Source: Thysanoteuthis rhombus (Eukaryota; Mollusca; Cephalopoda; Oegopsida; Thysanoteuthidae). Taken from it: a stretch of 64,000 bases of DNA. The notes under the pieces are model-generated. The model searched no databases. It was not told the DNA's origin and saw nothing but the letters and a program-made list of their open reading frames with translations. Shown here in pieces: positions 19,838 through 64,000 of this stretch (positions are counted from its first letter, which is position 1; each line of letters begins with the position of its first letter). The stretch covers positions 4,231,971 through 4,295,970 of the forward strand of contig OY735228.1 in NCBI GenBank assembly GCA_963457665.1, written 5' to 3'. Both the position numbers and the translations under genes were made by a program.

Positions 19838-19907
19838 AATCCCATAGTGTAGTGGTTATGTTTGCTTCAGATGCAAAGAACCCGGGGTTCAATCATTAGT
19901 GGAACCA
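19838..19907 (+). pseudogene. tRNA-Val-like pseudogene with CAG anticodon
   Basis: The 5' end is mutated (AATCCCATAGTGTAGTGG), ATCACG is shortened, and the anticodon loop reads TTCAGAT, which would be CAG (Leu). The T stem is degenerate. The same changes occur in the sister at 23545, so decay preceded the A/B duplication. Confidence 0.8.
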
Positions 19908-20009
19908 AATTTGTTACCAATTTGTATCGTACCATGTCAAGGGTGTGCTCTAAGGAAATATCACTGCAATGTATCACTGTTTCCTAGCCCACTAAGCTAA
20001 TGTTGTGTG

Positions 20010-20082
20010 GGTACCATAGTTTAGCAGTCATCATGCTTGCCTCACACGCCAGAAGTCCTGGTTTCGATCCCCAGTGGAACCA
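20010..20082 (+). pseudogene. tRNA-Val(CAC)-like, degenerate
   Basis: 73 nt with CAC anticodon and A/B-box-like sequences. It has an acceptor mismatch (A4-A69), an anticodon-stem mismatch (CTTGC/GCCAG) and one in the T stem. A T5 run follows within 5 nt. It is 168 bp from the next copy, close to the 174-bp period of the large array. Confidence 0.7.
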
Positions 20083-20177
20083 AATTTTTACTAATTTATT
20101 TTGTACCATATCAATTCTCCTAGGAAATATCACTGCAATTCATCACTGTTTCCTAACCCGCTAAATACTGTTGTGTA

Positions 20178-20250
20178 GGTTCCATAGTGTAGTGGTTATC
20201 ACGCTTGTTTCACACGCTAGAGGCCCTGTGTTCGATCCCCAGCGGAACCA
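20178..20250 (+). pseudogene. tRNA-Val(CAC)-like, degenerate
   Basis: Full-length with CAC anticodon, but with an A7.C66 mismatch, a T.T mismatch in the anticodon stem and one T-stem mismatch. Last unit of the short plus-strand array in unit A. Confidence 0.7.
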
Positions 20251-20389
20251 AAGATATTACCGATTTATATTGTCACGAGGTAGCACAGCCGGGCACCAAG
20301 AAGGGGACCTATTCAGCATAATTGTAAATAGAACCCCTAAATAAAAGCAGAAAATGTTTTCGAATTTTCAAATCTTATTTCTGACAGCC

Positions 20390-23302: not shown

Positions 23303-23544
23303 ATTTCGATTCCGAATTTCTTCAATACGATCAAGACTGATCATAGTCATGTGTAGAAAAAAGAAGAAATCCAGCAAAAAACCACATAAGTCTGGCAATC
23401 TTTCTAGGGGATAAGCTCAAATTTAAAGAAAAAAATCCCACTAAACTTAAAAAGATGGGTATAAAACCAACGTATCCTACCGATAGTCAACAATAGAGCT
23501 AAAACATTGACCCTGAAACTGAGCACAAAATGCTTTGTAGTATA

Positions 23545-23613
23545 AATCCCATAGTGTAGTGGTTATGTTTGCTTCAGATGCAAAGAACCCGGGGTTCAAT
23601 CATTAGCGGAACA
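23545..23613 (+). pseudogene. tRNA-Val-like pseudogene with CAG anticodon
   Basis: Unit B partner of 19838, with the same lesions (AATCCC start, TTCAGAT loop) and a further lost C in the 3' acceptor strand. Confidence 0.8.
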
Positions 23614-23714
23614 AATTCGTTACCAATTCATATCGTACTATGTCAAGGGTGTGCTCTTAGGAAATATCACTGCAATGAATCACTGTTTCCCAGCCCACTA
23701 AACTTTTTGGTGTA

Positions 23715-23787
23715 GGTTCCATAGTGTAGTGGTTATCACACTTGCTTCACACGCAAGATGCCCTGGGTCCGATCCCAAGTGAAACCA
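23715..23787 (+). pseudogene. tRNA-Val(CAC)-like, mildly degenerate
   Basis: Already has the array-type pairs A7:T66 and CTTGC/GCAAG. Its defects are a T-loop TCC, one T-stem mismatch and a C5.A68 acceptor mismatch. Exactly 174 bp from the next copy. Confidence 0.75.
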
Positions 23788-23888
23788 AATTTGTTACACA
23801 TTCATATTATACCAAATTGAAATTGTCCTCTCATGAAATATCACAGCAATTTAGCCACTTTTCCTAGCCCTGTAACGGCCCTTGAGTA

Positions 23889-23962
23889 GGTTCCATAGTG
23901 TAGTGGTTATTATGCTTGCCTCTACACGCCAGAAGTCCTGGGTTCGATCCCCAGCGGAACCA
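23889..23962 (+). pseudogene. tRNA-Val-like with 8-nt anticodon loop
   Basis: The T arm is good, but an extra base makes the anticodon loop CTCTACAC and the stem is mismatched (CTTGC/GCCAG). Acceptor A7.C66 is mismatched. Confidence 0.75.
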
Positions 23963-24058
23963 AATCTATTACCAATTTATTTTTTACCATATCAAGTCTC
24001 TTAGGAAATATCACTGCAATTTATCACAGTTTCCTAACCTACAAATCCCTATTGTGTA

Positions 24059-24131
24059 GGTTCCATAGTGTAGTGGTTATCACGCTTGCTTCACACGCAA
24101 GAGGCCCTGGGTTCGATCCCCAGTGAAACCA
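24059..24131 (+). tRNA. tRNA-Val(CAC), array type, one acceptor mismatch
   Basis: Differs from the consensus of the large array at a single base (TGAAACC for TGGAACC, giving C5.A68). It carries both array-specific pairs (A7:T66, CTTGC/GCAAG) and an intact D arm, T arm and CAC anticodon. No T4 follows closely. This is the closest relative of the array tRNA outside the array. Confidence 0.7.
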
Positions 24132-24369
24132 AAGATCTTACCAATTCGTATTTTCACGAGATAACACAGCCGGGCACTAAGAAGGGGACAGCATAATTGT
24201 AAATAAAACCCCTAAATAAAAGCACAAAATGTTTTCGAATTTTCAAATCTAATTTCTGAAAGCCCGTTCCAGGGTTCCATTAATACACACAGAACTTAAT
24301 TAGGGACATGTATGGTTCCTGAGTTACCCTATCACGTCACAGAGCTAGTTTGGTGCAGCAAAAATACAT

Positions 24370-34779: not shown

Positions 34780-34943
34780 AACTTTTACTGAAGAACTTCT
34801 CACCAAGATCATTACCGGTCAGCAGAGCGGTACTCAAGGTTAAAAAACGTAGTATCTCTTACAGTTCTTTTCTTCTATCTTCTTACAGAAAAAATGAACA
34901 TTCAGACGATGGCCATATACAAAAAGCAATTTCAAATTAATCA

Positions 34944-43901: not shown

Positions 43902-43974
43902 TGGTTCCGCTGGGGATCGAACCCAGGACCTCTCGCGTGTGAAGCGAGCGTGATAACCACTACACTACGGAACC
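43902..43974 (-). tRNA. tRNA-Val(CAC)
   Basis: Perfect canonical copy, same body as the 4252 gene. Minus-strand T4 (43889-43886) lies 12 nt downstream. It is the last canonical gene before the array, only 926 bp from the first array monomer, and in the same orientation. Confidence 0.95.
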
Positions 43975-44900: not shown

Positions 44901-47900
44901 CGATTCCGCTGGGGTTCTAAACTAAGCAATCTTGCATGTGAAACGAGCGTGATTACCACTTCGCTATGGGACCAAGGTAAATACCCAATTGTTGGTTAAA
45001 AAAATGAATTGAGAGTACCAAAATAATACAGTCGAAATTGGACCAATATCAATGGGTAACACTGGGGATCTCGTGTGAGGAGTAAACGTCATAATCACTA
45101 CACTATCGAACCCATGTCAATATGGCATTGTTGGTTTAAAAATGCCGATATATTGTCCTAATAGTTCCAAAGGGAATCCTTTTGCAATGGTACAATATAA
45201 AGGGTAATAAATCTAGTTCCACTGGGGAGCAAACCAAGGATATCTTGCGGTAAAAGACAAGTGAGATAACCTTTACATGATAGAACCAATGTCAGTATTG
45301 TACTGTTGGCTAAATGTATGACTATATATTCTGCTAATAGTTCCGGAAAGAAAACTTTGGCAATAGTACAATAAAAATCGGTAACATATCTGGATTTACT
45401 GTGGATCGAAACCAGGACCAACGCAAATGAAGCAAACGTAATAACCATTACACAACAGAAGCCATGATAAAATGGCATTGTTGGCTGGAAAAATGGCGAT
45501 ATATTGTGCTATTAGATCCCAAAAGAACACTTTTGCAATGGTAAAATATCAATGGGTTATAAGAAAAAACTAAGGCCATCTTGCATGTGAAATTAGCTTT
45601 ATAACCACTACACTTTAGAACTGATCACTTCAGGGCACAGTTGCCTGAAAAATTATGCTAATAATTTAAAATCAAACCAAGGGCCTCTTGCGTGTAAGGC
45701 AAGTGTGACAACCACTACGTGAGGGAATCTACATATCAAAGATTAGTGGGCTAAGAATTGGGAATAAATTGAAGTGATATTTCATGGGAGTAAAATTTTG
45801 ACTACGTATGATATAAATATGTAACAAATTTGGTTCCACAGGGGATGGAATCCAGAACCTCTTGCATGCGAGGCAAACGTGATAACCACTAAACTATGGA
45901 ACCTGTACCACAAAAACTTCTACATTAGAGAAAGAGGACAAATTGCAGTAATATTCCAGAAAGATTACTATGAAAAGGTATGATAAAAATGGGTGAAATA
46001 TTTGGTTCCAATGGGAATCAAACCAAGGTTTTTGTACGAGTGAAACAAACATGATCACCACTACCCTATAGAACCAATACAACAAAGCATAGACAGAAGA
46101 ACAGGATAAATTGCTGTGATATTTCATAAGAATAAAATTCTGATTTGGCAAGCTATGAATGGGTATAATTTGGCCCCACTGGGGATGGAACAAAGGACCT
46201 TTTGCGTGTGAAGCAAACGTGGTGACCGCTACACTATGGAACCTATATCTAAAAGCCATCTACATTACAAAAAAAGCAGACAAATAGCAGTGATATTCCA
46301 TGGGAGAATAGTACAAAATGATAAAATATAAATGGGTGAAAAATTCGATTCCACTGGGGATTAAACCTAGGACCACTTGCGTGTAAAGAAAGTGTGATAA
46401 ACATTACATTAAGGAACCTACACAACAAAGGTTAGTGGGCTAGGAAAAGGAGATAAATTGCTGTGATATTTCATAAAAGAATAATTTCGGCTTCGTATAA
46501 AATAAATGGGTGGCAAATTTGGTTCTACTGGGGATAGAACCCAAAGACACTTGCCTGCGTAGCTAATGCAATAATCACTGAACTATGTAACCCAAAACAC
46601 GAATGTGAAGGGGAGATAAATTGCGGTGATATTTCATAAGAAAATAAATTTGACTTGGTATAATAGAGATGGTAGGTGGATTTGTTTCCCTGGGGATTAA
46701 AAACGACCTAAAATGTATGAAGCAGGCATAATGACACTCACCCTAAAGATTATACAAGAAAAAGATAGTGTGCTAGGAAAAGTGGACATATTTCTGTGAT
46801 ATTTCATACGAGTATTATTTGAACACCGTATAATATGAATGTGTTACAAATTTAGTTTCACTGTGGATAGAACACAGGGCCTCTTCAATGTGAGGCAACC
46901 CTGATAAACACTACACTATGGAACCTACAACATTGCAATTACAGGGCTAGGAAAATATGAAAAGTTGCTGTGATATTTCATATGAGAATGATTTAACTTC
47001 GTCGGATATGAATGTGTAACAAATTTGGGTCTACGGGGGATCGAACCTAGGGCCTTTTGCCAGTGAAGCAAGCATGATAACCACTACTCTATGAAACATG
47101 CAAAAATTCGATTGCAGGGTTAAAAAAAGGTATAAATTGCAGATATATTTCATAAGAGAAGAATTTAAGCTTGGTTTAATATGAATGTGTAACAAATATG
47201 GTTCCACTGGAGATCGAACCCAAGGCCTCTTGCTTGTGGTGCAATCATGATAACCGATACAGTATAGAACATAAAAAATAGCAATTGAAGGGGCTGCGAA
47301 AATAAATGAATTGCAGTGATATTCCAAGAGAGAATAATTTCAGATCAGTATATGTGTAACAAATTTGGTTTCAATGAGGATCAAACCAAGGGCCTCTTCC
47401 ATGTGAACCAAGCATGATAACAACCACACTATGGAACTTACATCATGGTAATTATAGGGATGGGAAAATGGAATAAATTGCTGTGATAGTTCATAAGTGA
47501 ATAATTTCAACTTAGTATAATCTGAATATGTAACAAATTTGGTTCCACTGGGGATCGAACACAGGGTTATGGTATTTACAGAATGGCAATTGCAGGAGTA
47601 GAAAAAGTGGATTAATTGCTGTGATATTTCATTAAAAAAAAAATTTTATGTGTAACAAATTTGGCTCAACTGTAGATTGAACCCAAGGCTTCTTGCATGC
47701 TACAACATGGCAATTACAGGTCTAGGAATAGTGAACAAATTTTTGTGATATTTCATAAGAGAATAATTTCAACGTAAAATATTATTGTGTGTCATATTTG
47801 GTAAAACTTGGGATCGAAACTAAGGCACCTTAAGCGTGAAGACAGCGTGATAAACACTACACTATGGAACCTACTTCATGGCAATTACAGGGCTAGGAAA

Positions 47901-48140
47901 AGTGATTGAATTGCTGTAATATTTCATGAGAAAATAACTCGGTATAATATTAATGTAAGTGATACTTCATTCCACTTGGGATCAAACCCAGGTCCTCTTG
48001 CATGTGGAGCAAGCGTGATAACCACTACACTATGGAACCTACAACATGGCAATTACAGGGCTAAGAAAACAGGCTAAATTGCTGTGATAATTTATAAGAG
48101 AATAATGTCAATTCAGTTCAATCTGAATGTCTATCATATT
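44901..48140 (-). repeat. Degenerate left edge of the tRNA-Val tandem array (about 20 monomers)
   Basis: tRNA-Val-like starts (lowest coordinate) at 44901, 45053, 45214, 45391, 45560, 45664, 45831, 46003, 46171, 46346, 46520, 46683, 46853, 47026, 47199, 47366, 47540, 47662, 47799 and 47967. Spacing is irregular (about 104-178 bp). Several are truncated: 45053, 45560, 45664, 47540 (T arm only) and 47662. None folds as a perfect tRNA, although CAC is often still visible. Linkers keep the TGATATTTCAT...GAATA and GGGCTAGGAAAA signatures, so these are old members of the same monomer family. Divergence falls toward the right. Confidence 0.85.
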
Positions 48141-48734
48141 TGGTTCCACTGGGGATCGAACCCAGGGCCTCTTGCATGTGAAAAGAGTGTGATAACCACT
48201 AAACTATGAAACCTACAACATGGAAAATACAGGGCTAAGAAAACAGGCTAAATTGCTGCTGTATTTTATTAAAAATAACTCAAATTTGGTTCAATCTGAA
48301 AGTGTATTTTATATGGTTCCACTGGGGATCGAGGCAAGGGCCTTTTGCGTGTGAAGCAAGCGTGATAACCACTACACTATGGAACCGACAACATGGCATT
48401 TACAGGACTAAAAAAAAAGCTAAATTGCTGTGATAATTTATAAGAGAATAATTTCAATTCAGCTCAATCTGAATGTCCATCATATTTGGTTCCGCTGGGG
48501 ATTAAACCCAGGGCCTTTTGCATGTGAAGCAAGCATGATAACCACTACACTATGGAACCTACAACATGGCAATTACAGGGCTAAGAAAACACGCTAAATT
48601 GCTGTGATATTTTATAAGAGAAAAATTTCAATCCAGTTCAATCTGAATGTTTATCATATTTGGTTCCACTGACGATCGAACCCAGGGCCTCTTGCGTGTG
48701 AAGCAAGCGTGATAACCACTACACTTTGGAACCT
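48141..48734 (-). repeat. Four-monomer block repeated 17 monomers later
   Basis: Monomers at 48141, 48314, 48487 and 48661 correspond to 51097, 51270, 51444 and 51618 (offset about 2956 bp). The first pair shares GCATGTGAAAAGAGTGTG and a linker with ATTTTATTAAAAATAACTC found nowhere else. The second carries TCGAG(A/G)CAAGGGCC and the third GGATTAAACCC. Confidence 0.85.
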
Positions 48735-50226
48735 ACAACATGGCAATTACAGGGCTAAGAAAACACGCTAAATTGCTATGATATTTTATAAGAGAAAGAT
48801 TTCAATTCAGTTCAATCGGAATGTCTATCATATTTGGTTCCAATGTGGATCAAACCCAGGGCCTCTTGCATGTGAAGCAAGCGTGATAACCACTACACTA
48901 TGGAACCTACAACAGGGAAATTACAGGGCTAAGAAAACAGGCTAAATTACTGTGATATTTTATGAGAGAATAATTTCAATTCAGTTCAATCTGAATGTTT
49001 ATCATATTTAGTTCCACTGGGGATCGAGACAAGAGACTCTTGCATGTGAAGCAAGTGTAATAACCACTACACTATGGAACCTACAACATGGCAATTACAG
49101 GGCTAAGAAAAAGGGCTAAATTGCTGTGATAATTTATAAGAGAATAATTTCAATTCAGTTCAATCTGAATGTTTATCGTATTTGGTTCCACTGGGGATCG
49201 AACCCAGGGGCTTTTGCATGTGAAGCAAGCGTGATAACTACTACACTATGGAACCTACAACATGGCAATTACAGGGCTAAGAAAACACGCTAAATTGCTG
49301 TAATATTTTATGAGAGAATAATTTCAATTCAGTTCAATCTGAATGTCCATCATATTTGTTTCCACTGGGGATCGAACCGAGGGCCTCTTGCGTGTGAAGC
49401 AAGCGTGATAACCACTACACTATGGAACCTACAACATGGAAATTACAGAGCTAAGAAAACAGGCTAAATTGCTGTGATATTTTATAAGAGAATAATTTCA
49501 AATCAGTTCAATCTGAATGTCTATCATATTTGGTTCCACTGGGGATCGAACCCAGGGCCTCTTGCGTGTGAAGCAAGCGTGATAACCACTAAACTATGGA
49601 ACCTACAACATGGAAATTACAGGGCTAAGAAAACACGCTAAATTGCTGTGATATTTTATAAGAGAATAATTTCAAATCAGTTCAATCTGAATGTCTATCA
49701 TATTTGGTTCCACTGGGGATCGAACCCAGGGCCTCTTGCGTGTGAAGCAAGCGTGATAACCACTACACAATGGAACCTACAACGTGGCAATTACAGGGCT
49801 AAGAAAACACGCTAAATTGCTGTGATATTTTATGAGAGAATAATTTCAATTCAGTTCAATCTGAATGTCTATCATATTTGGTTCCACTGGGGATCGAACC
49901 CAGGGCCTCTTGCATGTGAAGCAAGCGTGATAACCACTAAACTATGGAACCTACAACATGGAAATTACAGGGCTAAGAAAACACGCTAAATTGCTGTGAT
50001 ATTTTATAAGAGAATAATTTCAAATCAGTTCAATCTGAATGTCTATCATATTTGGTTCCACTGGGGATCGAACCCAGGGCCTCTTGCGTGTGAAGCAAGC
50101 GTGATAACCACTACACAATGGAACCTACAACGTGGCAATTACAGGGCTAAGAAAACACGCTAAATTGCTGTGATATTTTATAAGAGAATAATTTCAATTC
50201 AGTTCAATCTGAATGTCTATCATATT

Positions 50227-50299
50227 TGGTTCCACTGGGGATCGAACCCAGGGCCTCTTGCGTGTGAAGCAAGCGTGATAACCACTACACTATGGAACC
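50227..50299 (-). tRNA. tRNA-Val(CAC), array consensus
   Basis: Exact consensus. Follows a dimeric stretch (49531/49705 repeated as 49879/50053, with alternating AAACTATGG and ACACAATGG variants). Confidence 0.85.
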
Positions 50300-50400
50300 T
50301 ACAACATGGCAATTACAGGGTTAAGAAAACAGGCTAAATTGCTGTGATATTTTATAAGAGAATAATTTCAATTCAGTTCAATCTGAATGTCTATCATATT

Positions 50401-50821
50401 TGGTTCCACTGGGGATAGAACCCAGGTTCTCTTGTGTGTGGAGAGAACGTGATAACCACTACACTATGGAACCTACAACATAGCAATTACTATGCTAAGA
50501 AAACAGGCTAAATTGCTGTGATATTTTATAAGAGATTAATTTCAATTCAGTTCAATCTGAATGTCTATCATATTTGGTTCCACTGGGGATCGAACCCAGG
50601 TTCTCTTGCGTGTGAAGAGAACGTGATAACCACTACACTATGGAATCTACAACATGGAAATTACAGGGCTAAGAATACACGCTAAATTGCTGTGATATTT
50701 TATAAGAGATTAATTTCAATTCAGTTCAATCTGAATGTCTATCATATTTGGTTCCACTGGGGATCGAACCCAGGTTCTCTTGCGTGTGAAGAGAACGTGA
50801 TAACCACTACACTATGGACCC
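50401..50821 (-). pseudogene. Three hairpin-variant tRNA-Val monomers
   Basis: Monomers at 50401, 50575 and 50749. In the last two the anticodon arm is replaced by GTTCTCTT-CACACGC-AAGAGAAC, a perfect 8-bp stem with a 7-nt loop. This consumes the variable region, so the normal cloverleaf is impossible even though length and A/B boxes are kept. The same variant recurs at 52662, 53010, 54228 and 54576. Confidence 0.8.
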
Positions 50822-52313
50822 TACAACATGGAAATTACAGGGCTAAGAAAACAGGCTAAATTTCTGTGATTATTTATAAGAGAATTATTTCAATTCAGTT
50901 CAATCTGAATGTCTATCATATTTAGTTCCGCTGGGGATCGAACCCAGGGCCTCTTGCGTGTGAAGCAAGCGTGATAACCACTACACTATGGAATCTACAT
51001 TATGGCAATTACAGGGCTAAGAAAACACGCTAAATTGCTGTGATAATTTATAAGAGAATAATTTCAATTCAGTTCAATCTGAATGTCTATCATATTTGGT
51101 TCCACTGGGGATCGAACCCAGGGCCTCTTGCATGTGAAAAGAGTGTGATAACCACTACACTATGAAACCTACAACATGGAAATTACAGGGCTAAGAAAAC
51201 AGGCTAAATTGCTGCTGTATTTTATTAAAAATAACTCCAATTTGGTTCAATCTGAAAGTGTATTTTATATGGTTCCACTGGGGATCGAGACAAGGGCCTT
51301 TTGCGTGTGAAGCAAGCGTGATAACCACTACACTATGGAACCTACAACATGGCATTTACAGGACTAAAAAAACAGGCTAAATTGCTGTGATAATTTATAA
51401 GAGAATAATTTCAATTCAGTTCAATCTGAATGTCCATCATATTTGGTTCCGCTGGGGATTAAACCCAGGGCCTTTTGCATGTGAAGCAAGCATGATAACC
51501 ACTACACTATGGAACCTACAACATGGCAATTACAGGGCTAAGAAAACACGCTAAATTGCTATGATATTTTATAAGAGAATAATTTCAAATCAGTTCAATC
51601 TGAATGTTTATCGTATTTGGTTCCACTGGGGATCGAACCCAGGGCCTCTTGTGTGTGGAGCAAGAGTGATAACCACTACACTATGGAACCTACAACATGG
51701 CAATTACAGGGCTAAGAAAACAGGCTAAATTGCTGTGATAATTTGTAAGAGAATAATTTCAATCCAGTTCAATCTGAATGTCCATCATATTTGGTTCCAC
51801 TGGGGATCAAACCCAGGGCTTCTTGCATGTGAAGCAAGCGTGATAACCACTACACTATGGAACCTACAACATGGCAATTACAGGGCTAAGAAAACACGCT
51901 AAATTGCTGTGATATTTTATAAGAGAATAATTTCAAATCAGTTCAATCTAACTGTCTATCATATTTGGTTCCACTGGGGATCGAACCCAGGGCCTCTTGC
52001 GTGTGAAGCAAGCGTGATAACCACTAAACTATGGAACCTACAACATGGAAATTACAGGGCTAAGAAAACAGGCTAAATTGCTGTGATATTTTATAAGAGA
52101 ATAATTTCAAATCAGTTCTAACTGAATGTCTATCATATTTGGTTCCACTGGGGATCGAACTGAGGGCCTCTTGCGTGTGAAGCAAGCGTGATAACCACTA
52201 CACTATGGAACCTACAACATGGCAATTACAGGGCTAAGAAAACAGGCTAAATTGCTGTGATATTTTATAAGAGAATAATTTCAAATCAGTTCTAACTGAA
52301 TGTCTATCATATT

Positions 52314-52386
52314 TGGTTCCACTGGGGATCGAACCCAGGGCCTCTTGCGTGTGAAGCAAGCGTGATAACCACTACACTATGGAACC
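52314..52386 (-). tRNA. tRNA-Val(CAC), array consensus
   Basis: Exact consensus. Opens copy 1 of the nine-monomer higher-order repeat. Linkers on both sides carry the TCTAACTGAATG variant. Confidence 0.85.
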
Positions 52387-52487
52387 TACAACATGGAAAT
52401 TACAGGGCTAAGAAAACAGGCTAAATTGCTGTGATATTTTATAAGAGAATAATTTCAAATCAGTTCTAACTGAATGTCTATCATATT

Positions 52488-52560
52488 TGGTTCCACTGGG
52501 GATCGAACCCAGGGCCTCTTGCGTGTGAAGCAAGCGTGATAACCACTACACTATGGAACC
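52488..52560 (-). tRNA. tRNA-Val(CAC), array consensus
   Basis: Exact consensus. Adjacent to the 52314 copy and followed by a hairpin variant at 52662. Confidence 0.85.
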
Positions 52561-52661
52561 TACAACATGGCAATTACAGGGCTAAGAAAACAGGCTAAAT
52601 TGCTGTGATATTTTATAAGAGAATAATTTCAATTCAGTTCAATCTGAATGTCTATCATATT

Positions 52662-52734
52662 TGGTTCCACTGGGGATAGAACCCAGGTTCTCTTGTGTGT
52701 GAAGAGAACCTGATAACCACTACACTATGGACCC
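52662..52734 (-). pseudogene. Hairpin-variant tRNA-Val with 9-bp stem
   Basis: The most palindromic variant: GGTTCTCTT and AAGAGAACC flank a 7-nt loop, giving a 9-bp perfect stem in place of the anticodon arm. Its duplicate is at 54228. Confidence 0.8.
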
Positions 52735-55445
52735 TACAACATGGCAATTACAGGGCTAAGAAAACACGCTAAATTGCTGTGATATTTTATAAGAGAATAA
52801 TTTCAGTTCAGTTCAATCTGAATGTCTATCATATTTGGTTCCACTGGGGATCGAACTGAGGGCCTCTTGCGTGTGATGCAAGCGTGATAACCACTACACT
52901 ATGGACCCTACAACATGGAAATTACAGGGCTAAGAAAACACGCTAAATTGCTGTGATATTTTATAAGAGAATAATTTCAATTCAGTTCAATCTGAATGTC
53001 TATCATATTTGGTTCCACTGGGGATCGAACCCAGGTTCTCTTGCGTGTGAAGAGAACGTGATAACCACTACACTATGGACCCTACAACATGGCAATTACA
53101 GGGCTAAGAAAACACGCTAAATTGCTGTGATATTTTATAAGAGAATAATTTCAGTTCAGTTCAATCTGAATGTCTATCATATTTGGTTCCACTGGGGATC
53201 GAACCCAGGGCCTCTTGCGTGTGAAGCAAGCGTGATAACAACAACACTATGGAACCTACAACATGGCAATTACATGGCTAAGAAAACACGCTAAATTGCT
53301 GTGATATTTTATAAGAGAATAATTTCAAATCAGTTCAATCTGAATGTCTATCATATTTGGTTCCACTGGGGATCAAACCCAGGGCCTCTTGCGTGTGAAG
53401 CAAGCGTGATAACCACAACACTATGGAACCTACAACATGTCAATTACAGGGATAAGAAAACAGGCTAAATTGCTGTGGTAATTTATAAGAGAATAATTTC
53501 AATTCAGTTCAATCTGAATGTCTATCATATTTGGTTCCACTGGGGATCAAACCCAGGGCCTCTTGCGTGTGAAGCAAGCATGATAACCACTACACTATGG
53601 AATCTACAACATGGAAATTACAGGGCTAAGAATACACGCTAAATTGCTGTGATAATTTATAAGAGAATAATTTCAATTCAGTTCAATCTGAATGTCTATC
53701 ATATTTGGTTCCACTGGGGATCGAACCCAGGGCCTCTTGCATGTGAAGCAAGCGTGATAACCACTACACTATGGAATCTACAACATGGAAATTACAGGGC
53801 TAAGAAAACACGCTAAATTGCTGTGATATTTTATAAGAGAATAATTTCAAATCAGTTCTAACTGAATGTCTATCATATTTGGTTCCACTGGGGATCGAAC
53901 TGAGGGCCTCTTGCGTGTGAAGCAAGCGTGATAACCACTACACTATGGAACCTACAACATGGAAATTACAGGGCTAAGAAAACAGGCTAAATTGCTGTGA
54001 TATTTTATAAGAGAATAATTTCAAATCAGGTCTAACTGAATGTCTATCATATTTGGTTCCACTGGGGATCGAACTGAGGGCCTCTTGCGTGTGAAGCAAG
54101 CGTGATAACCACTACACTATGGAACCTACAACATGGCAATTACAGGGCTAATAAAACAGGCTAAATTGCTGTGATATTTTATAAGAGAATAATTTCAATT
54201 CAGTTCAATCTGAATGTCTATCATATTTGGTTCCACTGGGGATAGAACCCAGGTTCTCTTGTGTGTGAAGAGAACCTGATAACCACTACACTATGGACCC
54301 TACAACATGGCAATTACAGGGCTAAGAAAACACGCTAAATTGCTGTGATATTTTATAAGAGAATAATTTCAGTTCAGTTCAATCTGAATGTCTATCATAT
54401 TTGGTTCCACTGGGGATCGAACTGAGGGCCTCTTGCGTGTGAAGCAAGCGTGATAACCACTACACTATGGACCCTACAACATGGAAATTACAGGGCTAAG
54501 AAAACAGGCTAAATTGCTGTGATATTTTATAAGAGAATAATTTCAATTCAGTTCAATCTGAATGTCTATCATATTTGGTTCCACTGGGGATCGAACCCAG
54601 GTTCTCTTGCGTGTGAAGAGAACGTGATAACCACTACACTATGGACCCTACAACATGGCAATTACAGGGCTAAGAAAACACGCTAAATTGCTGTGATATT
54701 TTATAAGAGAATAATTTCAGTTCAGTTCAATCTGAATGTCTATCATATTTGGTTCCACTGGGGATCGAACCCAGGGCCTCTTGCGTGTGAAGCAAGCGTG
54801 ATAACAACAACACTATGGAACCTACAACATGGCAATTACATGGCTAAGAAAACACGCTAAATTGCTGTGATATTTTATAAGAGAATAATTTCAAATCAGT
54901 TCAATCTGAATGTCTATCATATTTGGTTCCACTGGGGATCAAACCCAGGGCCTCTTGCGTGTGAAGCAAGCGTGATAACCACAACACTATGGAACCTACA
55001 ACATGTCAATTACAGGGCTAAGAAAACAGGCTAAATTGCTGTGGTAATTTATAAGAGAATAATTTCAATTCAGTTCAATCTGAATGTCTATCATATTTGG
55101 TTCCACTGGGGATCAAACCCAGGGCCTCTTGCGTCTGAAGCAAGCATGATAACCACTACACTATGGAATCTACAACATGGAAATTACAGGGCTAAGAATA
55201 CACGCTAAATTGCTGTGATAATTTATAAGAGAATAATTTCAATTCAGTTCAATCTGAATGTCTATCATATTTGGTTCCACTGGGGATCGAACCCAGGGCC
55301 TCTTGCATGTGAAGCAAGCGTGATAACCACTACACTATGGAATCTACAACATGGAAATTACAGGGCTAAGAAAACAGGCTAAATTGCTGTGATAATTTAT
55401 AAGAGAATAATTTCAATTCAGTTCAATCTGAATGTCTATCATATT

Positions 55446-55518
55446 TGGTTCCACTGGGGATCGAACCCAGGGCCTCTTGCGTGTGAAGCAAGCGTGATAA
55501 CCACTACACTATGGAACC
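55446..55518 (-). tRNA. tRNA-Val(CAC), array consensus
   Basis: Exact consensus. First monomer after the nine-monomer repeat pair. Confidence 0.85.
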
Positions 55519-55793
55519 TACAACATGGCAATTACAAGGCTAAGAAAACACGCTAAATTGCTGTGATATTTTATAAGGGAATAATTTCAAATCAGTTCAA
55601 TCTGAATGTCTATCATATTTGGTTCCACTGGGGATCGAACCCAGGGCTTCTTGCGTGTGAAGCAAGCGTGGTAACCACTACACTATGGAATCTACAACAT
55701 GGAAATTACAGGGCTAAGAAAACACGCTAAATTGCTGTGATATTTTATAAGAGAATAATTTCAATTCAGTTCAATCTGAATGTCTATCATATT

Positions 55794-55866
55794 TGGTTCC
55801 ACTGGGGATCGAACCCAGGGCCTCTTGCGTGTGAAGCAAGCGTGATAACCACTACACTATGGAACC
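55794..55866 (-). tRNA. tRNA-Val(CAC), array consensus
   Basis: Exact consensus, between single-base variants at 55620 and 55968. Confidence 0.85.
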
Positions 55867-56662
55867 TACAACATGTCAATTACAGGGCTAAGAAAACAGG
55901 CTAAATTTCTGTGATTATTTATAAGAGAATAATTTCAATTCAGTTCAATGTGAATGTCTATCATATTTGGTTCCACTGGGGATCGAATCCAGGGCCTCTT
56001 GCGTGTGAAGCATGCGTGATAACCACTACACTATGGAACCTACAACATGGCAATTACAGGGCTAAGAAAACACGCTAAATTGCTGTGGTAATTTATAAGA
56101 GAATAATTTCAATTCAGTTCAATCTGAATGTCTATCATATTTGGTTCCACTGGGGATCGAACCCAGGGCCTCTTGCATGTGAAGCAAGCGTGATAACCAC
56201 TACACTATGGAACCTACAACATGGCAATTACAGGGCTAAGAAAACAAGCTAAATTGCTGTGATAATTTATAAGAGAATAATTTCAATTCAGTTCAATCTG
56301 AATGTCTATCATATTTAGTTCCACTGGGGATCGAACCCAGGGCCTCTTGCGTGTGAAGCAAGCGTGATAACCACTACACTATGGAACCTACAACATGGCA
56401 ATTACAGGGCTAAGAAAACACGCTAAATTGCTGTGATTTTTAATAAGAGAGTAATTTCAATTCAGTTCAATCTGAATGTCTATCATATTTGGTTCCACTG
56501 GGGATCAAACCCAGGCCTCTTGCGTGTGAAGCAAGAGTGATAACCACTAAACTATGGAACCTACAATATGGCAATTACAGGGTTAAGAAAACAGGCTAAA
56601 TTGCTGTGGTAATTTATAAGAGAATAATTTCAATTCAGTTCAATCTGAATGTTTATCATATT

Positions 56663-56735
56663 TGGTTCCACTGGGGATCGAACCCAGGGCCTCTTGCGTG
56701 TGAAGCAAGCGTGATAACCACTACACTATGGAACC
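56663..56735 (-). tRNA. tRNA-Val(CAC), array consensus
   Basis: Exact consensus. The 173-bp step before it comes from a 1-nt deletion in the 56490 monomer. Confidence 0.85.
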
Positions 56736-58402
56736 TACAACATGTCAATTACAGGGCTAAGAAAACAGGCTAAATTTATGTGATTATTTATAAGAGAATT
56801 ATTTCAATTCAGTTCAATCTGAATGTCTATCATATTTAGTTCCGCTGGGGATCGAACCCAGGGCTTCTTGCGTGTGAAGCAAGCGTGATAACCACTACAC
56901 TATGGAACCTACAACATGGCAATTACAGGGCTAAGAAAACACGCTAAATTGCTGTGATATTTTATAAGAGAATAATTTCAAATCAGTTCAATCTGAATGT
57001 CTATCATATTTGGTTCCACTGGGGATCGAACCCTTGGCTTCTTGCGTGTGAAGCAAGCGTGATAACCACTACACTATGGAACCTACAACATGGCAATTAC
57101 TGGGCTAAGAAAACACGCTAAATTGCTGTGATATTTTTTAAGAGAATAATTTCAAATCAGTTCAATCTGAATGTCTATCATATTTGGTTCCACTGGGGAT
57201 CGATCCCATGGCCTCTTGCGTGTGAAGCAAGCGTGATAACCACTACACTATGGAACCTACAACATGGCAATTACAGGGCTAAGAAAACACGCTAAATTGC
57301 TGTGATAATTTATAAGAGAATAATTTCAATTCAGTTCAATCTGAATGTCTATCATATTTGGTTCCACTGGGGATCGAACCCAGGGTCTCTTGCGTGTGAA
57401 GCAAGAGTGATAACCACTACACTATGGAACCTACAACATGGCAATTACAGGGCTAAGAAAACACGCTAAATTGCTGTGATATTTTATAAGACAATAATTT
57501 CAAATCAGTTCAATCTGAATGTCTATCATATTTGGTTCCACTGGGGATCGAACCCATGGCCTCTTGCGTGTGAAGCAAGCGTGATAACCACTACACTATG
57601 GAACCTATAACATGGCAATTACAGGGCTAAGAAAACAGGCTAAATTGCTGTGGTAATTTATAAGAGAATAATTTCAATTCATTTCAATCTGAATGTCTAT
57701 CATTATTTGGTTCCACTGGGGATCGAACCCAGGGCCTCTTGCGTGTGAAGCAAGCGTGATAACACCTACACTATGGAACCTACAACATGGCAATTACAGG
57801 GCTAAGAAAACACGCTAAATTGCTGTGGTAATTTATAAGAGAATAATTTCAAATCAGTTCAATCTGAATGTCTATCATATTTGGTTCCACTGGGGATCGA
57901 ACCCAGGGCCTCTTCCGTGTAAAGCAAGCGGGATAACAACTACACTATGGAACCTACAACATGGCAATTTCAGGGCTAAGAAAACACGCTAAATTTCTGT
58001 GATTATTTATAAGAGAATAATTTCAAATCAGTTCAATCTGAATGACTATCGTATTTGGTTCCACTGGGGATCAAACCCAGGGTATATTATATGTGAAGCA
58101 AGCGTGATAACACCTACACTATGGAACCTACAACATGGCAATTACAGGGCTAAGAAAACACGCTAAATTGCTGTGATATTTTATAGAGAATAATTTCAAA
58201 TCAGTTCAATCTGAATGTCTGTCATATTTGGTTCCACTGGGGATTGTACCCAGGGCCTCTTGCGTGTGAAGCAAGCGTGATAACCACTACACTATGGAAC
58301 CTACAACATGGCAATTACAGGGTTAAGAAAACACGCTAAATTGCTGTGGTAATTTATAAGAGAATAATTTCAATTCAGTTCAATCTGAATGTCTGTCATA
58401 TT

Positions 58403-58475
58403 TGGTTCCACTGGGGATCGAACCCAGGGCCTCTTGCGTGTGAAGCAAGCGTGATAACCACTACACTATGGAACC
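58403..58475 (-). tRNA. tRNA-Val(CAC), array consensus
   Basis: Exact consensus, first of three consecutive perfect monomers. Its 3' linker carries GTCTGTCATA. Confidence 0.85.
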
Positions 58476-58576
58476 TACAACATGGCCATTACAGGGCTAA
58501 GAAAACACGCTAAATTGCTGTGGTAATTTATAAGAGAATAATTTCAATTCAGTTCAATCTGAATGTCTATCATATT

Positions 58577-58649
58577 TGGTTCCACTGGGGATCGAACCCA
58601 GGGCCTCTTGCGTGTGAAGCAAGCGTGATAACCACTACACTATGGAACC
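58577..58649 (-). tRNA. tRNA-Val(CAC), array consensus
   Basis: Exact consensus, second of the three. Its 3' linker carries CATGGCCATT. Confidence 0.85.
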
Positions 58650-58750
58650 TACAATATGGCAATTATAGGGCTAAGAAAACACGCTAAATTGCTGTGGTAA
58701 TTTATAAGAGAATAATTTCAATTCAGTTCAATCTGAATGTCTATCATATT

Positions 58751-58823
58751 TGGTTCCACTGGGGATCGAACCCAGGGCCTCTTGCGTGTGAAGCAAGCGT
58801 GATAACCACTACACTATGGAACC
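58751..58823 (-). tRNA. tRNA-Val(CAC), array consensus
   Basis: Exact consensus, third of the three. Next to a TTATATTGTATG variant at 58925. Confidence 0.85.
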
Positions 58824-59272
58824 TACAACATTGCAATTACAGGGCTAAGAAAACATGCTAAATTTCTGTGATTATTTATAAGAGAATAATTTCAATTCGG
58901 TTTAATCTGAATGTGTATTATATTTAGTTCCGCTGGGGATCGAACCCAGGTTATATTGTATGTGAAGCAAGCGTGATAACACCTACACTATGGAACCTAC
59001 AACATGACAATTACAGGGCTAAGAAAACAGGCTAAATTGCTGTGCTAATTTATAAGAGAATAATTTCAATTAAGTTCAAACTGAATGTCTATCATATTTG
59101 GTTCCACTGGGGATCGAACCCAGGGCCTCTTGCGTGTGAAGCGAGCATGATAACCACTACACTATGGAATTTACAACATGGCAATGACAGGGCTAAGAAA
59201 ACAGGCTAAACTGCTGTGATAATTCATAAGAGAATAATTTCAAATCAGTTCAATCTGAATGTCTATCATTTT

Positions 59273-59345
59273 TGGTTCCACTGGGGATCGAACCCAGGGC
59301 CTCTTGCGTGTGAAGCAAGCGTGATAACCACTACACTATGGAACC
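59273..59345 (-). tRNA. tRNA-Val(CAC), array consensus
   Basis: Exact consensus; flank reads CATTTTTGG rather than CATATTTGG. Confidence 0.85.
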
Positions 59346-60142
59346 TACAACATAGCAATTACATGGCTAAGAAAACAGGCTAAATTTCTGTGATATTTTA
59401 TAAGAGAATAATTTCAAATCAGTTCAATCTGAATGTCTATCATATTTGGTTCCACTGGGGATCGAACCCATGGTCTCTTGCGTGTGAAGCAAGCGTGATA
59501 ACCACTACACTATGGAACCTACAACATGGCAATTACAGGGCTAAGAAAACACGCTAAATTGCTGTGGTAATTTATAAGAGAATAATTTCAAATCAGTTCA
59601 ATCTGAATGTCTATCATATTTGGTTCCACTGGGGATCGAACCCAGGGCCTCTTCCGTGTAAGGCAAGCGGGATAACAACTACACTATGGAACCTACAACA
59701 TGGCAATTTCAGGGCTAAGAAAACACGCTAAATTGCTGTGATAATTTATAAGAGAATAATTTCAAATCAGTTCAATCTGAATGTCTATCGTATTTGGTTC
59801 CACTGGGGATCAAACCCAGGGTATATTATATGTGAAGCAAGCGTGATAACACCTACACTATGGAACCTACAACATGGCAATTACAGGGCTAAGAAAACAC
59901 GCTAAATTGCTGTGATATTTTATAAGAGAATAATTTCAAATCAGTTCAATCTGAATGTCTATTATATTTGGTTCCACTGGGGATCGTACCCAGGGCCTCT
60001 TGCGTGTGAAGCAAGCGTGATAACCACTACACTATGGAACCTACAACATGGCAATTACAGGGTTAAGAAAACACGCTAAATTGCTGTGGTAATTTATAAG
60101 AGAATAATTTCAATTCAGTTCAATCTGAATGTCTGTCATATT

Positions 60143-60215
60143 TGGTTCCACTGGGGATCGAACCCAGGGCCTCTTGCGTGTGAAGCAAGCGTGATAACCA
60201 CTACACTATGGAACC
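60143..60215 (-). tRNA. tRNA-Val(CAC), array consensus
   Basis: Exact consensus; ten-monomer paralogue of the 58403 copy, sharing its linker. Confidence 0.85.
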
Positions 60216-60316
60216 TACAACATGGCCATTACAGGGCTAAGAAAACACGCTAAATTGCTGTGCTAATTTATAAGAGAATAATTTCAATTCAGTTCAATCT
60301 GAATGTCTATCATATT

Positions 60317-60389
60317 TGGTTCCACTGGGGATCGAACCCAGGGCCTCTTGCGTGTGAAGCAAGCGTGATAACCACTACACTATGGAACC
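60317..60389 (-). tRNA. tRNA-Val(CAC), array consensus
   Basis: Exact consensus; ten-monomer paralogue of the 58577 copy. Confidence 0.85.
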
Positions 60390-61360
60390 TACAACATGGC
60401 AATTACAGGGCTAAGAAAACACGCTAAATTGCTGTGATATTTTATAAGAGAATAATTTCAAATCAGTTCAATCTGAATGTCTATCATATTTGGTTCCACT
60501 GGGGATCGTACCCAGTGCCTCTTGCGTGTGAAGCAAGCGTGATAACCACTACACTATGGAACCTACAACATGGCAATTACAGGGCTAAGAAAACACGCTA
60601 AATTGCTGTGATATTTTATAAGAGAAAAATTTCAAATCAGTTCAATCTGAATGTCTATCGTATTTAGTTCCACTGGGGATCAAACCCAGGGTATATTATA
60701 TGTGAAGCAAGCGTGATAACCACTACACTATGGAACCTACAACATGGCAATTACAGGGCTAAGAAAACACGCTAAATTGCTGTGATAATTTATAAGAGAA
60801 TAATTTCAATTCAGTTCAATCTGAATGTCTATCATATTTGGTTCCACTGGGGATCGAACCCAGGGCCTCTTGCGTGTGAAGCAAGCGTGATAACCACTAC
60901 ACTATTGAACCTACAACATGGCAATTACAGGGCTAAGAAAACACGCTAAATTGCTGTGGTAATTTATAAGAGAATAATTTCAATTCAGTTCAATCTGAAT
61001 GTCCATCATATTTGGTTCCACTGGGGATCGAACCCAGGGCCTCTTGCGTGTGAAGCAAGCGTGATAACCTCTACACTATGGAACCTACAACATGGCAATT
61101 ACAGGGCTAAGAAAACATGCTAAATTGCTGTGATAATTTATAAGAGAATAATTTCAATTCAGTTCAATCTGAATGTCTATCATATTTGGTTCCACTGGGG
61201 ATCGAACCCAGGGCCTCTTGCGTGTGAAGCAAGCGTGATAACCACTACACTATGGAATGTACAACATGGCAATTACAGGGCTAAGAAAACAGACTAAACT
61301 GCTGTGATATTATATAACAGAATAATTTCAAATCAGTTCAATCTGAATGTCTATCATATT

Positions 61361-61433
61361 TGGTTCCACTGGGGATCGAACCCAGGGCCTCTTGCGTGTG
61401 AAGCAAGCGTGATAACCACTACACTATGGAACC
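61361..61433 (-). tRNA. tRNA-Val(CAC), array consensus
   Basis: Exact consensus. Its 3' linker has the unusual AAACAGACTAAACTG spelling seen again before 63795. Confidence 0.85.
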
Positions 61434-61534
61434 TACAACATGGCAATTACAGGGCTAAGAAAACACGCTAAATTGCTGTGATATTTTATAAGAGAAAAAT
61501 TTCAAATCAGTTCAATCTGAATGTCTATCATATT

Positions 61535-61607
61535 TGGTTCCACTGGGGATCGAACCCAGGGCCTCTTGCGTGTGAAGCAAGCGTGATAACCACTACACTA
61601 TGGAACC
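61535..61607 (-). tRNA. tRNA-Val(CAC), array consensus
   Basis: Exact consensus; 5' flank CTGCAACATGG. Confidence 0.85.
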
Positions 61608-61882
61608 TGCAACATGGCAATTTCAGGGCTAAGAAAACACGCTAAATTGCTGTGATAATTTATAAGAGAATAATTTCAAATCAGTTCAATCCGAATGTCT
61701 ATCGTATTTGGTTCCACTGGGGATCGAACCCAGGGTATATTATATGTGAAGCAAGCGTGATAACCACTACACTATGGAACCTACAACATGGCAATTACAG
61801 GGCTAAGAAAACACGCTAAATTGCTGTGATAATTTATAAGAGAATAATTTCAATTCAGTTCAATCTGAATGTCTATCATATT

Positions 61883-61955
61883 TGGTTCCACTGGGGATCG
61901 AACCCAGGGCCTCTTGCGTGTGAAGCAAGCGTGATAACCACTACACTATGGAACC
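61883..61955 (-). tRNA. tRNA-Val(CAC), array consensus
   Basis: Exact consensus; follows a TATATTATATG variant at 61709. Confidence 0.85.
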
Positions 61956-63272
61956 TACAACATGGCAATTACAGGGCTAAGAAAACACGCTAAATTGCTG
62001 TGGTAATTTATAAGAGAATAATTTCAATTCAGTTCAATCTGAATGTCTATCATATTTGGTTCCACTAGGGATCGAACCCAGGGCCTCTTGCGTGTGAGGC
62101 AAGCGTGATAACCACTACACTATGGAACCTACAACCTGGCAATTACAGGGCTAAGAAAACACGCGAAATTGCTGTGATATTCTATAAGAGAATAATTTCA
62201 ATTCAGTTCAATGTGAATGTCTATCATATTTGGTTCCACTGGGGATCGAACCCAGGCCTCTTCCGTGTGAAGCAAGAGTGATAACCACTACACTATGGAA
62301 CTTACAATATGGTAATTACAGGGCTAAGAAAACACGCTAAATTGCTGTGATAATTTATAAGAGAATAATTTCAAATCAGTTCAATCTGAATGTCTATCAT
62401 ATTTGGTTCCACTGGGGATCGAACCCAGGGCCTCTTGCGTGTGAAGCAAGCGTGATAACCACTACACTATGGAACTTACAACATGGCAATTACAGGGTTA
62501 AGAAAACAGGCTAAATTGCTGTGGTAATTTATAAGAGAATAATTTCAATTCAGTTCAATCTGAATGTCTATCATATTTGGTTCCACTAGGGATCGAACCC
62601 AGGGCCTCTTGCGTGTGAAGCATGCGTGATAACCACTACACTATGGAACCTACAACATGGCAATTACAGGGCTAAGAAAACACGCTAAATTGCTGTGATA
62701 TTCTATAAGAGAATAATTTCAATTCAGTTCAATCTGAATGTCCATCATATTTGGTTCCACTGGGGATCGAACCCAGGCCTCTTGCGTGTGAAGCAAGCGT
62801 GATAACCACTACACTATGGAACCTACAACATAGCGATTACAGGGCAAAGAAAACACGCTAAATTTCTGTGATTATTTATAAGAGAATAATTTCAAATCAG
62901 TTCAATCATAATGTCTATCATATTCGGTTCCACTGGGGATCGAACCCAGGGCCTCTTGCGTGTGAAGCAAGCGTGATAACCACTACACTATGGAACCTAC
63001 AACGTAGCAATTACAGGGCAAAGAAAACACGCTAAATTGCTGTGGTAATTTATAAGAGAATAATTTCAAGTCAGTTCAATCTGAATGTGTATTATATTTA
63101 GTTCTGTTGGGGATCGAACCCAGGGTATATTGTATGTGAAGCAAGCGTGATAACCACTACACTATGGAACCTACAACATGACAATTACAGGGCTAAGAAA
63201 ACAGGCTAAATTGCTGTGGTAATTTATAAGAGAATAATTTCAATTCAGTTCAATCTGAATGTCTGTCATATT

Positions 63273-63345
63273 TGGTTCCACTGGGGATCGAACCCAGGGC
63301 CTCTTGCGTGTGAAGCAAGCGTGATAACCACTACACTATGGAACC
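63273..63345 (-). tRNA. tRNA-Val(CAC), array consensus
   Basis: Exact consensus; third occurrence of the GTCTGTCATA-linked type (58403, 60143). Confidence 0.85.
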
Positions 63346-63446
63346 TACAACATGGCCATTACAGGGCTAAGAAAACACGCTAAATTGCTGTGGTAATTTA
63401 TAAGAGAATAATTTCAATTCAGTTCAATCTGAATGTCTATCATATT

Positions 63447-63519
63447 TGGTTCCACTGGGGATCGAACCCAGGGCCTCTTGCGTGTGAAGCAAGCGTGATA
63501 ACCACTACACTATGGAACC
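63447..63519 (-). tRNA. tRNA-Val(CAC), array consensus
   Basis: Exact consensus; third occurrence of the CATGGCCATT-linked type (58577, 60317). Confidence 0.85.
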
Positions 63520-64000
63520 TACAACATGGCAATTACAGGGCTAAGAAAACACGCTAAATTGCTGTGATATTTTATAAGAGAATAATTTCAAATCAGTTCA
63601 ATCTGAATGTCTATCATATTTGGTTCCACTGGGGATCGAACCCAGGGCCTCTTGCGTGTGAAGCAAGCGTGATAACCACTACACTATGGAATCTACAACA
63701 TGGCAATTACAGGGCTAAGAAAACAGACTAAACTGCTGTGATATTCTATAAGAGAATAATTTCAATTCAGTTCAATGTGAATGTCTATCATATTTGGTTC
63801 CACTGGGGATCGAACCCAGGCCTCTTCCGTGTGAAGCAAGAGTGATAACCACTACACTATGGAACTTACAATATGGTAATTACAGGGCTAAGAAAACACG
63901 CTAAATTGCTGTGATAATTTATAAGAGAATAATTTCAAATCAGTTCAATCTGAATGTCTATCATATTTGGTTCCACTGGGGATCGAACCCAGGGCCTCTT

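Follow-up and report, generated by a model that had tools for sequence, protein, structure and literature searches.

A 468-copy tandem tRNA-Val(CAC) array in a squid genome: a candidate gene battery with freely decaying copies

Introduction

Tandem tRNA arrays are a known kind of locus. In Entamoeba, as set out in excerpts of PMC2652664, nearly all tRNA genes lie in arrays built from 25 unit types of up to five genes each; concerted evolution is invoked, copy number is not tied to codon use, and the authors saw no clear pseudogene copies. Excerpts of PMC12308677 and PMC11700998 describe the Arabidopsis SYY cluster (27 repeats, tRNA-Tyr and tRNA-Ser) and proline tRNA clusters as methylated, silent in most tissues and active in special cells of the root tip; whether methylation itself does the silencing is doubted there. 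The human/mouse 1q23.3 repeat has, in an excerpt of PMC4041453, a 7.3-kb GC-rich unit holding several tRNAs and present in 9-43 units, and the silk-gland tRNA-Ala tandem repeats of Bombyx, named in an excerpt of PMC12308677, are matched to secreted silk proteins.

Here we describe a tRNA-Val(CAC) gene repeated head to tail in 174-bp units within a 64,000-nt stretch (the window) of a contig of the squid Thysanoteuthis rhombus (OY735228.1). Matches to hemocyanin and suckerin indicate a decapodiform cephalopod. As far as those excerpts go, it resembles the Entamoeba arrays in its length, head-to-tail order and mostly uniform units, but occurs in an animal, with one gene per unit, many decayed copies, and short-unit arrays so far only of Val and Ala. 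Like the Arabidopsis clusters it is a big tandem cluster beside dispersed genes, and unlike them it comprises 468 copies of one isoacceptor. Conserved tRNA genes in a unit whose remainder turns over are shared with the 1q23.3 repeat, although the unit here is 174 bp long with ~39% GC; a special tRNA subset amplified in tandem is shared with Bombyx, although the analogous idea of a match to suckerins failed. We found this form nowhere in the openly licensed literature searched, and no nuclear tRNA array of a cephalopod, absences that are weak evidence; the word "tRNA" is absent from the main text of PMC9068888 and PMC13218726, which report squid/octopus and cuttlefish genomes, and PMC6279123 only names it as a prediction step.

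Results

The array occupies 44901..64000 on the minus strand of the window. Scanning by edit distance with the tRNA as query gives 111 complete copies between 44901 and 63867 and a further copy cut by the edge, in agreement with the roughly 112 monomers on one strand counted in an earlier note on this DNA; the note rightly saw the right edge as open, and its count is not the total, as the array runs on to C33:4357868. An array of this length rules out chance. The strict 174-bp period proposed earlier applies to the homogeneous core (48040..63867, minus strand), where 81 of the 91 units in the window are exactly 174 bp long and mean pairwise identity is 93.1%, and fails in the degenerate left edge (44901..48039, minus strand), whose 19 irregularly spaced units diverge from the core consensus by 18.9% in the tRNA and 25.3% in the spacer. 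In the TRF output the 174-bp array spans 47700-64000 (93.8 copies, 93% matches), and a separate, diverged stretch with a 173-bp period covers 46796-47566; ARAGORN and Rfam call a tRNA in most core copies. Seventeen copies in the window equal the consensus, the number previously given; one lies at 58403..58475 (minus strand). Unequal exchange, also suggested before, is supported by a nine-unit block (1566 bp) occurring twice in tandem at 52387..55518 (minus strand; first copy 52387-53952, the second adjoining), with 99.04% identity, 15 mismatches and no gap, and by the decay of the array's ends around a homogeneous centre.

Followed beyond the window edge in the assembly, this array (array 3) holds 468 tRNA copies over 81 kb without N by the same scan, 71 of them exact, and is degenerate at either end; ARAGORN makes 428 tRNA calls in it, from window position 47 kb rightwards. 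A core set of 441 of its 467 units, from which the edges and units outside 165-180 bp are excluded, contains 343 distinct units, and the anticodon is CAC in 434 of the 441. A complete tRNA in each head-to-tail unit is what a tandem tRNA gene battery should show; a long array homogenised by unequal exchange is equally what a satellite should show.

The same chromosome carries two further arrays of this family: array 2, with 138 copies (109 units analysed, the first 28 copies, a divergent edge, being left out), and array 1, with 110 copies in the part read, in three pieces of 51, 31 and 28 copies that supplied 49, 29 and 23 units. Exact array-type 72-mers number 163 genome-wide (41 forward, 122 reverse), divided among array 1 (47), array 2 (41) and array 3 (75), with none elsewhere; selection must therefore have acted on the arrayed copies. 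This distribution, confined to three arrays on one chromosome, led us to reject a tRNA-derived SINE. Small inverted relatives with related spacers are found in the window at 19815..20273 (plus strand, 3 units read) and 23522..24154 (plus strand, 4 units read), and their consensus, from five of the seven units, differs from the core at 2/73 tRNA and 31/96 spacer sites. A canonical dispersed tRNA-Val(CAC) gene stands at 43902..43974 (minus strand), and ten more lie at 4252, 8770, 11785, 13038, 17030, 19529, 23230, 28772, 31609 and 40045. The two array-specific base pairs pointed out in the earlier note are indeed A7:T66 and T29:A41 in the array, against G7:C66 and C29:G41 in dispersed genes. A gene-against-flank control on four non-overlapping pairs of duplicated segments gave mismatches at 2/271 gene and 253/3246 flank positions (p = 3e-7). 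Scans of viral contigs and genome contigs turned up no relatives, which is unsurprising for an animal repeat.

One and the same 73-nt tRNA consensus is shared by the two core pieces and the decayed edge of array 1, by array 2 and by array 3, whereas the spacer consensus differs from that of array 3 at 18, 14 and 42 (array 1 pieces and edge) and 5 (array 2) of 101 sites. Fisher tests of these against 0/73 tRNA differences give p values of 5e-5, 4e-4, 1e-12 and 0.075, the first three significant and the last not. A consensus tRNA fixed across arrays with changed spacers is expected of a battery and is not predicted by a functionless satellite. The 19 units at the window's left edge likewise have a consensus differing from the core at 0/73 tRNA and 25/101 spacer sites, although a consensus from a 14-unit subset shows 3/73 tRNA differences, which speaks against a battery.

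Within arrays the signal is mixed. Arrays 1 and 2 are less variable in the tRNA than in the spacer (non-CpG sites: 2.7 v 8.8%, 3.2 v 5.9% and 1.9 v 5.8%). Overall variation in array 3 is nearly even at 3.74% v 3.84% (441 units), and in the window at 3.95% v 3.83%, against a battery. No constraint is visible in array 3 overall, yet critical sites and stems in the full array, like the between-array consensus, look constrained. Fourteen critical tRNA positions, taken from general tRNA knowledge but chosen after the window's per-site table had been seen, vary at non-CpG sites by 0.9% in the 441 units, compared with 3.4% for other tRNA positions and 3.5% for the spacer, and are clearly below other tRNA sites solely in array 3 and one array 1 piece. 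Array 3 has 229 broken pairs, where matched random mutants give 274 +/- 10; the same test shows no deficit in the window alone (148, random expectation 144) and is null in array 2 and one of two array 1 pieces.

Individual copies decay freely, which is unlike a tightly kept battery. Strictly intact units make up a minority of array 3 (147/441), a majority of array 2 (68/109), and 24/49 and 10/29 of two array 1 pieces. B-box C56 is T in 20% of array 3 units, again against a battery, and by a string test 30/441 carry a variant whose anticodon stem is damaged. CpG transitions reach 8.2% in array 3, other C/G sites showing 2.1%; this excess comes from two of the four CpGs (38 and 56) and may reflect methylated, possibly silent DNA. 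The earlier description of the locus as standing between battery and satellite is a fair one, to which we add that the consensus tRNA is fixed across arrays while two thirds of the 441 units are not strictly intact.

A battery with near terminators is not what the window core shows: the 30 nt that follow the tRNA hold no TTTT, and the first is at +71/72 in 81 of the 91 units and at +36 to +39 in 5, with none found in 3. A candidate Pol III terminator is the TTTT that begins ~72 nt past the tRNA, at unit positions 145-148 (for example 58328..58331, minus strand). Among dispersed genes, by comparison, TTTT stands at +6 to +24 in 13/15, and at +6 to +20 in 10 of the 11 listed tRNA-Val(CAC) genes, the gene at 31609 having it at +45. 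The +72 TTTT is kept in 434/441 array 3 units, where it is the least variable of 97 four-site spacer windows; in arrays 1 and 2 its conservation is unremarkable.

As to codon demand, four suckerin-like frames (from six loci, two of which duplicate frames already counted) use GTG for 3 of their 63 valine codons and GCG for 1 of their 79 alanine codons, and four hemocyanin frames use GTG for 14 of 92 valine codons. The idea that Val, Ala and Thr tRNAs supply the suckerins, the squid sucker-ring proteins, is rejected on these figures. The rarity of the two codons in two gene families, together with the lack of a close terminator, argues against bulk tRNA supply.

Discussion

We favour, with a probability of about 0.58, an oversized tRNA-Val(CAC) gene battery maintained by array-level purifying selection together with unequal exchange. 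Each 174-bp unit would be a self-contained candidate Pol III unit, with a full tRNA, internal promoter boxes and the distant TTTT; the tRNA would be transcribed, processed and charged, and the distant terminator used. On this chromosome a tRNA-Val gene with two compensated stem-pair shifts would have given rise, by amplification, to three arrays or more; unequal exchange would homogenise the centre of each and leave its ends to decay, and purifying selection on the array as a whole would hold the consensus tRNA fixed while single copies drift.

A tRNA-derived satellite, in which a former tRNA-Val gene spreads in nucleosome-length units by unequal exchange, silent and functionless, its likeness to a tRNA being simple inheritance, is possible though rather unlikely. 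It would account for the similar variability of tRNA and spacer inside array 3, the null broken-pair test in the window, the damaged-stem variant, the raised CpG transitions (if they do mean methylated, possibly silent DNA) and the missing near terminator in the window core. A plain neutral satellite was indeed how array 3 appeared from the window alone, a reading dropped in the light of the 441 units of the full array and of arrays 1 and 2: the consensus tRNA is the same across arrays despite 5-42 changes in 101 spacer sites, and critical sites and stems are kept above expectation in the full array 3. We regard as improbable a chromatin element, whose TFIIIC/Pol III-bound tRNA units would form a boundary, a condensed domain or a barrier to replication, with the tRNA product secondary. 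In its favour, two tRNA families whose spacers are unrelated both have units close to a nucleosome in length (164-174 bp), codon use in two gene families fits the arrays poorly, and boundary roles are proposed for the human 1q23.3 repeat in an excerpt of PMC4041453; but the fixed 73-nt consensus and anticodon go beyond what promoter boxes alone would need. That the assembler inflated or collapsed the copy number is very improbable. The array comes from a single assembly and contains exact repeats of up to 1303 bp, a worry weakened by the absence of N, the many distinct units, the 15 differences between the nine-unit blocks, the degeneracy of both ends and the separate places of the three arrays.

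A single animal assembly here presents one tRNA gene in hundreds of copies, spread over several arrays that differ in their stage of decay, which makes testable both selection on a gene present in hundreds of exchangeable copies and the boundary between battery and satellite. A simple supply explanation is called into question by the poor agreement with codon use among the few genes examined. The same architecture recurs in tRNA-Ala arrays with 164/166-bp units, on a different chromosome and with spacers unrelated to those of the tRNA-Val arrays, which hints that the process is a general one in this lineage; there TTTT follows directly behind the tRNA, and the tRNA is less variable than the spacer, which favours a battery. 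More speculatively, and unlikely as matters stand, these may form a class of nucleosome-length tRNA arrays of independent origins, Val (174 bp) and Ala (164/166 bp), in which the tRNA is selected for purposes other than common codons, with a stage-specific or non-translational role such as embryo or gonad tRNA, tRNA fragments, or arrayed TFIIIC sites that organise chromatin. Short-unit arrays are so far only those of Val and Ala, in an array search that scored 63 of 263,858 candidates. We also note a 1081-bp battery with tRNA-Phe, the position of the tRNA-Phe being given by ARAGORN.

Extent and structure of the tRNA-Val array

The right 19.1 kb of the window is a head-to-tail array of tRNA-Val(CAC) genes on the minus strand, for which TRF recovers a unit of 174 bp between 47700 and the window edge, in agreement with the period and single orientation described in the earlier note. 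That note had counted about 112 monomers, 17 of them exact, and had left the array open at the right edge; by edit-distance scanning, 111 copies are complete from 44901 onward, one more is cut by the edge, 17 tRNAs equal the consensus exactly, and the array does continue in the assembly to C33:4357868. In full (C33:4276871-4357868, minus strand; array 3) it holds 468 copies, 71 with exact tRNAs, contains no N, and takes 367 of its 467 steps at exactly 174 bp; it is real, and no artefact as far as the assembly can show, and exceeds the size reported earlier. The 111 window copies delimit 110 units: 19 degenerate ones, diverging from the core consensus by 18.9% in the tRNA and 25.3% in the spacer, and then a 91-unit core with a mean pairwise identity of 93.1%. 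Divergence is high at both ends of the full array. Seven units (window 50401, 50575, 50749, 52662, 53010, 54228 and 54576, minus strand) carry a stem that has been rebuilt on each side to GTTCTC/GAGAAC, a version that a string search found nowhere else in array 3; ARAGORN reads their anticodon at position 36.

Unequal exchange is visible in array 3 as a nine-unit block present twice in tandem (99.04% identity), as longer near-identical runs offset by 13, 16 and 20 units, and as decayed ends. CpG transitions affect 8.2% of cells in its units versus 2.1% at other C/G sites, the excess coming from two of four CpGs (C38, 23%; G39, 8%; C56, 20%) with those at 25/26 and 141/142 near background; CpG methylation of the array is only a suggestion, because old variants, once spread, would give a similar pattern. 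Five sites separate the array-type tRNA from the canonical one. At four of them the change is a transition at a CpG of the canonical tRNA gene, and these four make up two compensated pairs, 7:66 and 29:41.

Sister arrays and neighboring tRNA genes

Two further arrays of this family lie on C33, of which the window takes up 4231971-4295970: array 2 (C33:4082778-4107038, plus strand) has 138 copies, 41 of them exact, and array 1 (about 2.8046-2.8509 Mb, minus strand) has at least 110 copies (28 + 51 + 31), counted over all of it but about 25 kb in the middle. Outside masked stretches of the 2.73-Gb assembly, there are 41 forward and 122 reverse occurrences of the exact 72-mer (41 in array 2, 75 in array 3, 47 in array 1), and this search found no exact array-type tRNA outside the three arrays. 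A 26-mer with both A7 and T29 occurs 84 times forward, with 83 matches in array 2 and one in a 204-kb stretch around the window, and 361 times reverse (18 without position), with 243 in the 204-kb stretch, which includes array 3, and, among the matches listed, 100 in array 1.

The rest of the window carries dispersed canonical tRNA-Val and tRNA-Phe genes in many segmental duplications, positions 1-45000 forming a dense mosaic of direct and inverted copies. Two 5S rRNA matches (4413-4514, plus strand, 51 bits; 11587-11705, minus strand, 44 bits) lie near tRNA-Val genes within an inverted duplication, and partial tRNA-Val-like fragments detected by blastn at 2449-2506, 30249-30308, 34730-34782 and 37851-37919 probably represent remnants of such dispersed genes. 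In the interval that separates arrays 2 and 3, 13 kb to the left of the window, a battery with a unit of about 1081 bp (C33:4196242-4219013) contains 22 canonical tRNA-Val(CAC) genes and, on the opposite strand, 19 called tRNA-Phe(GAA) genes, two more tRNA-Phe places falling in masked N. Over 21 units its tRNA-Val varies by 0.13%, and the remaining unit sequence by 1.19%; it is cleaner than the 174-bp array. Elsewhere, C43:11.37-11.62 Mb holds a loose cluster of at least 26 high-scoring tRNAs, of which the one checked is a tRNA-Thr(TGT).

Evidence for probable selection on the arrayed tRNA

The most likely account of the array is a battery of tRNA-Val genes, many of its copies decayed, which selection at the level of the array and unequal exchange maintain; the main rival is a functionless satellite. 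The strongest evidence for selection on the tRNA comes from comparison between arrays: all three, with array 1 represented by two pieces and its decayed edge, have an identical 73-base tRNA consensus, whereas their spacers differ from that of array 3 at 18 and 14 (array 1 pieces), 42 (decayed edge) and 5 (array 2) of 101 sites (tRNA-versus-spacer p of 5e-5, 4e-4, 1e-12 and 0.075, respectively). At the window's left edge, all 19 units together give 0/73 tRNA versus 25/101 spacer differences (a 14-unit subset gives 3 tRNA differences), and the consensus of the mini-arrays, two small plus-strand relatives at 19.8 and 23.5 kb in the window (5 of 7 units), gives 2/73 versus 31/96. Since the exact tRNA was confined to the arrays in the 72-mer search, such selection must act on the arrayed copies.

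Inside array 3, the tRNA is about as variable as the spacer, as a functionless satellite would have it: 3.95 versus 3.83% in the 91 window units, and 3.74 versus 3.84% in 441 of 467 units of the full array (2.92 versus 3.50% at non-CpG sites). In contrast, the dispersed window genes show 2/271 gene versus 253/3246 flank mismatches across four duplicated segment pairs. Broken pairs among 62 distinct window tRNAs match random expectation (148 versus 144 +/- 6), and among the 191 distinct tRNAs of array 3 they fall below it (229 versus 274 +/- 10; 0/300 simulations). Fourteen critical tRNA positions, chosen from general tRNA knowledge with the window's per-site table already seen, vary by 0.9% in array 3 versus 3.4-3.5% elsewhere. 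As the variants are related by descent, the probabilities from these tests are no more than indicative. Replication of this constraint is mixed: the pair test gives P of 0.63 in array 2 and 0.03 and 0.80 in the two pieces of array 1, critical positions lie below other tRNA sites with P of 0.11, and 0.19 and 0.02, and below spacer sites with P of 0.005, and <0.0001 and 0.009, in the same order.

Candidate transcription unit

Dispersed genes have TTTT 6-24 nt 3' of the tRNA in 13 of 15 cases. The motif stands at +71/72 in 81 of the 91 window core units and at unit positions 145-148 in 434 of 441 units of array 3, where, of 97 four-site windows in the spacer, it varies least; it is present in 38/49 and 26/29 units of array 1 and 96/109 of array 2, at unexceptional conservation ranks of 28, 39 and 48 of 97. 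A long trailer, cut off in tRNA processing, would be possible.

A second family of tRNA arrays

An Rfam tRNA search, in which 63 of 263,858 candidates were scored, led to tRNA-Ala arrays on C35, with 164-bp units near 5.81 Mb and 166-bp units near 7.59 Mb (plus strand) and 7.61 Mb (minus strand). Most of their anticodons are CGC, the remainder including TGC, TTTT follows the tRNA immediately, and 43 exact tRNA copies lie at 5.790-5.831 and 7.582-7.618 Mb. Of three sampled pieces, of 6, 3 and 4 kb (36, 17 and 21 units), two share a tRNA consensus from which the third departs at 1/72 sites; the 164- and 166-bp spacers are mostly unlike past their first bases. The tRNA is less variable than the spacer in all three pieces, narrowly in one (non-CpG, 1.7 versus 3.7, 3.9 versus 4.5 and 1.8 versus 4.2%). 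Blastn of the Val spacer against the Ala arrays returned nothing beyond 8-base matches, and since the spacers are unrelated, the short-unit architecture appears to have at least two origins in this genome. Arrays of this kind are already known; this one is set apart by its size, the single isoacceptor, the nucleosome-length unit, the parallel Ala arrays and the cephalopod host.

Possible roles and gene families checked

A supply of tRNA for decoding GTG is the obvious reading, and the genes checked do not support it. In four hemocyanin frames, 14/92 valine codons are GTG and 0/99 alanine codons are GCG, the codon read by the main Ala-array anticodon; the corresponding counts in four suckerin-like frames are 3/63 and 1/79. 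The counts cover these eight stop-to-stop frames only, some non-coding ends included. The arrays might instead supply tRNA at a special stage, by analogy with the Arabidopsis SYY cluster, described as active in root tips (PMC12308677), or might act in chromatin, as has been proposed for the human tRNA repeat at 1q23.3 (PMC4041453).

A search with the mollusc hemocyanin domain PF14830 gave 52 matches. One functional unit aligns to chain 6r83 with 709 bits and to 3j32 with 466, chains that we take to be squid and abalone hemocyanin, respectively. Suckerin-like frames also occur, suckerin being listed among families restricted to squid (PMC9068888), and contig sizes would suit a set of about 46 chromosomes, the number given for decapodiforms (PMC13218726). 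Together these observations indicate a decapodiform cephalopod. We note that nine hemocyanin functional-unit matches at C25:56607734-56625492, with the same score, 464-aa frames and a spacing of about 2.18 kb, apparently reflect a single unit that has been multiplied in tandem.
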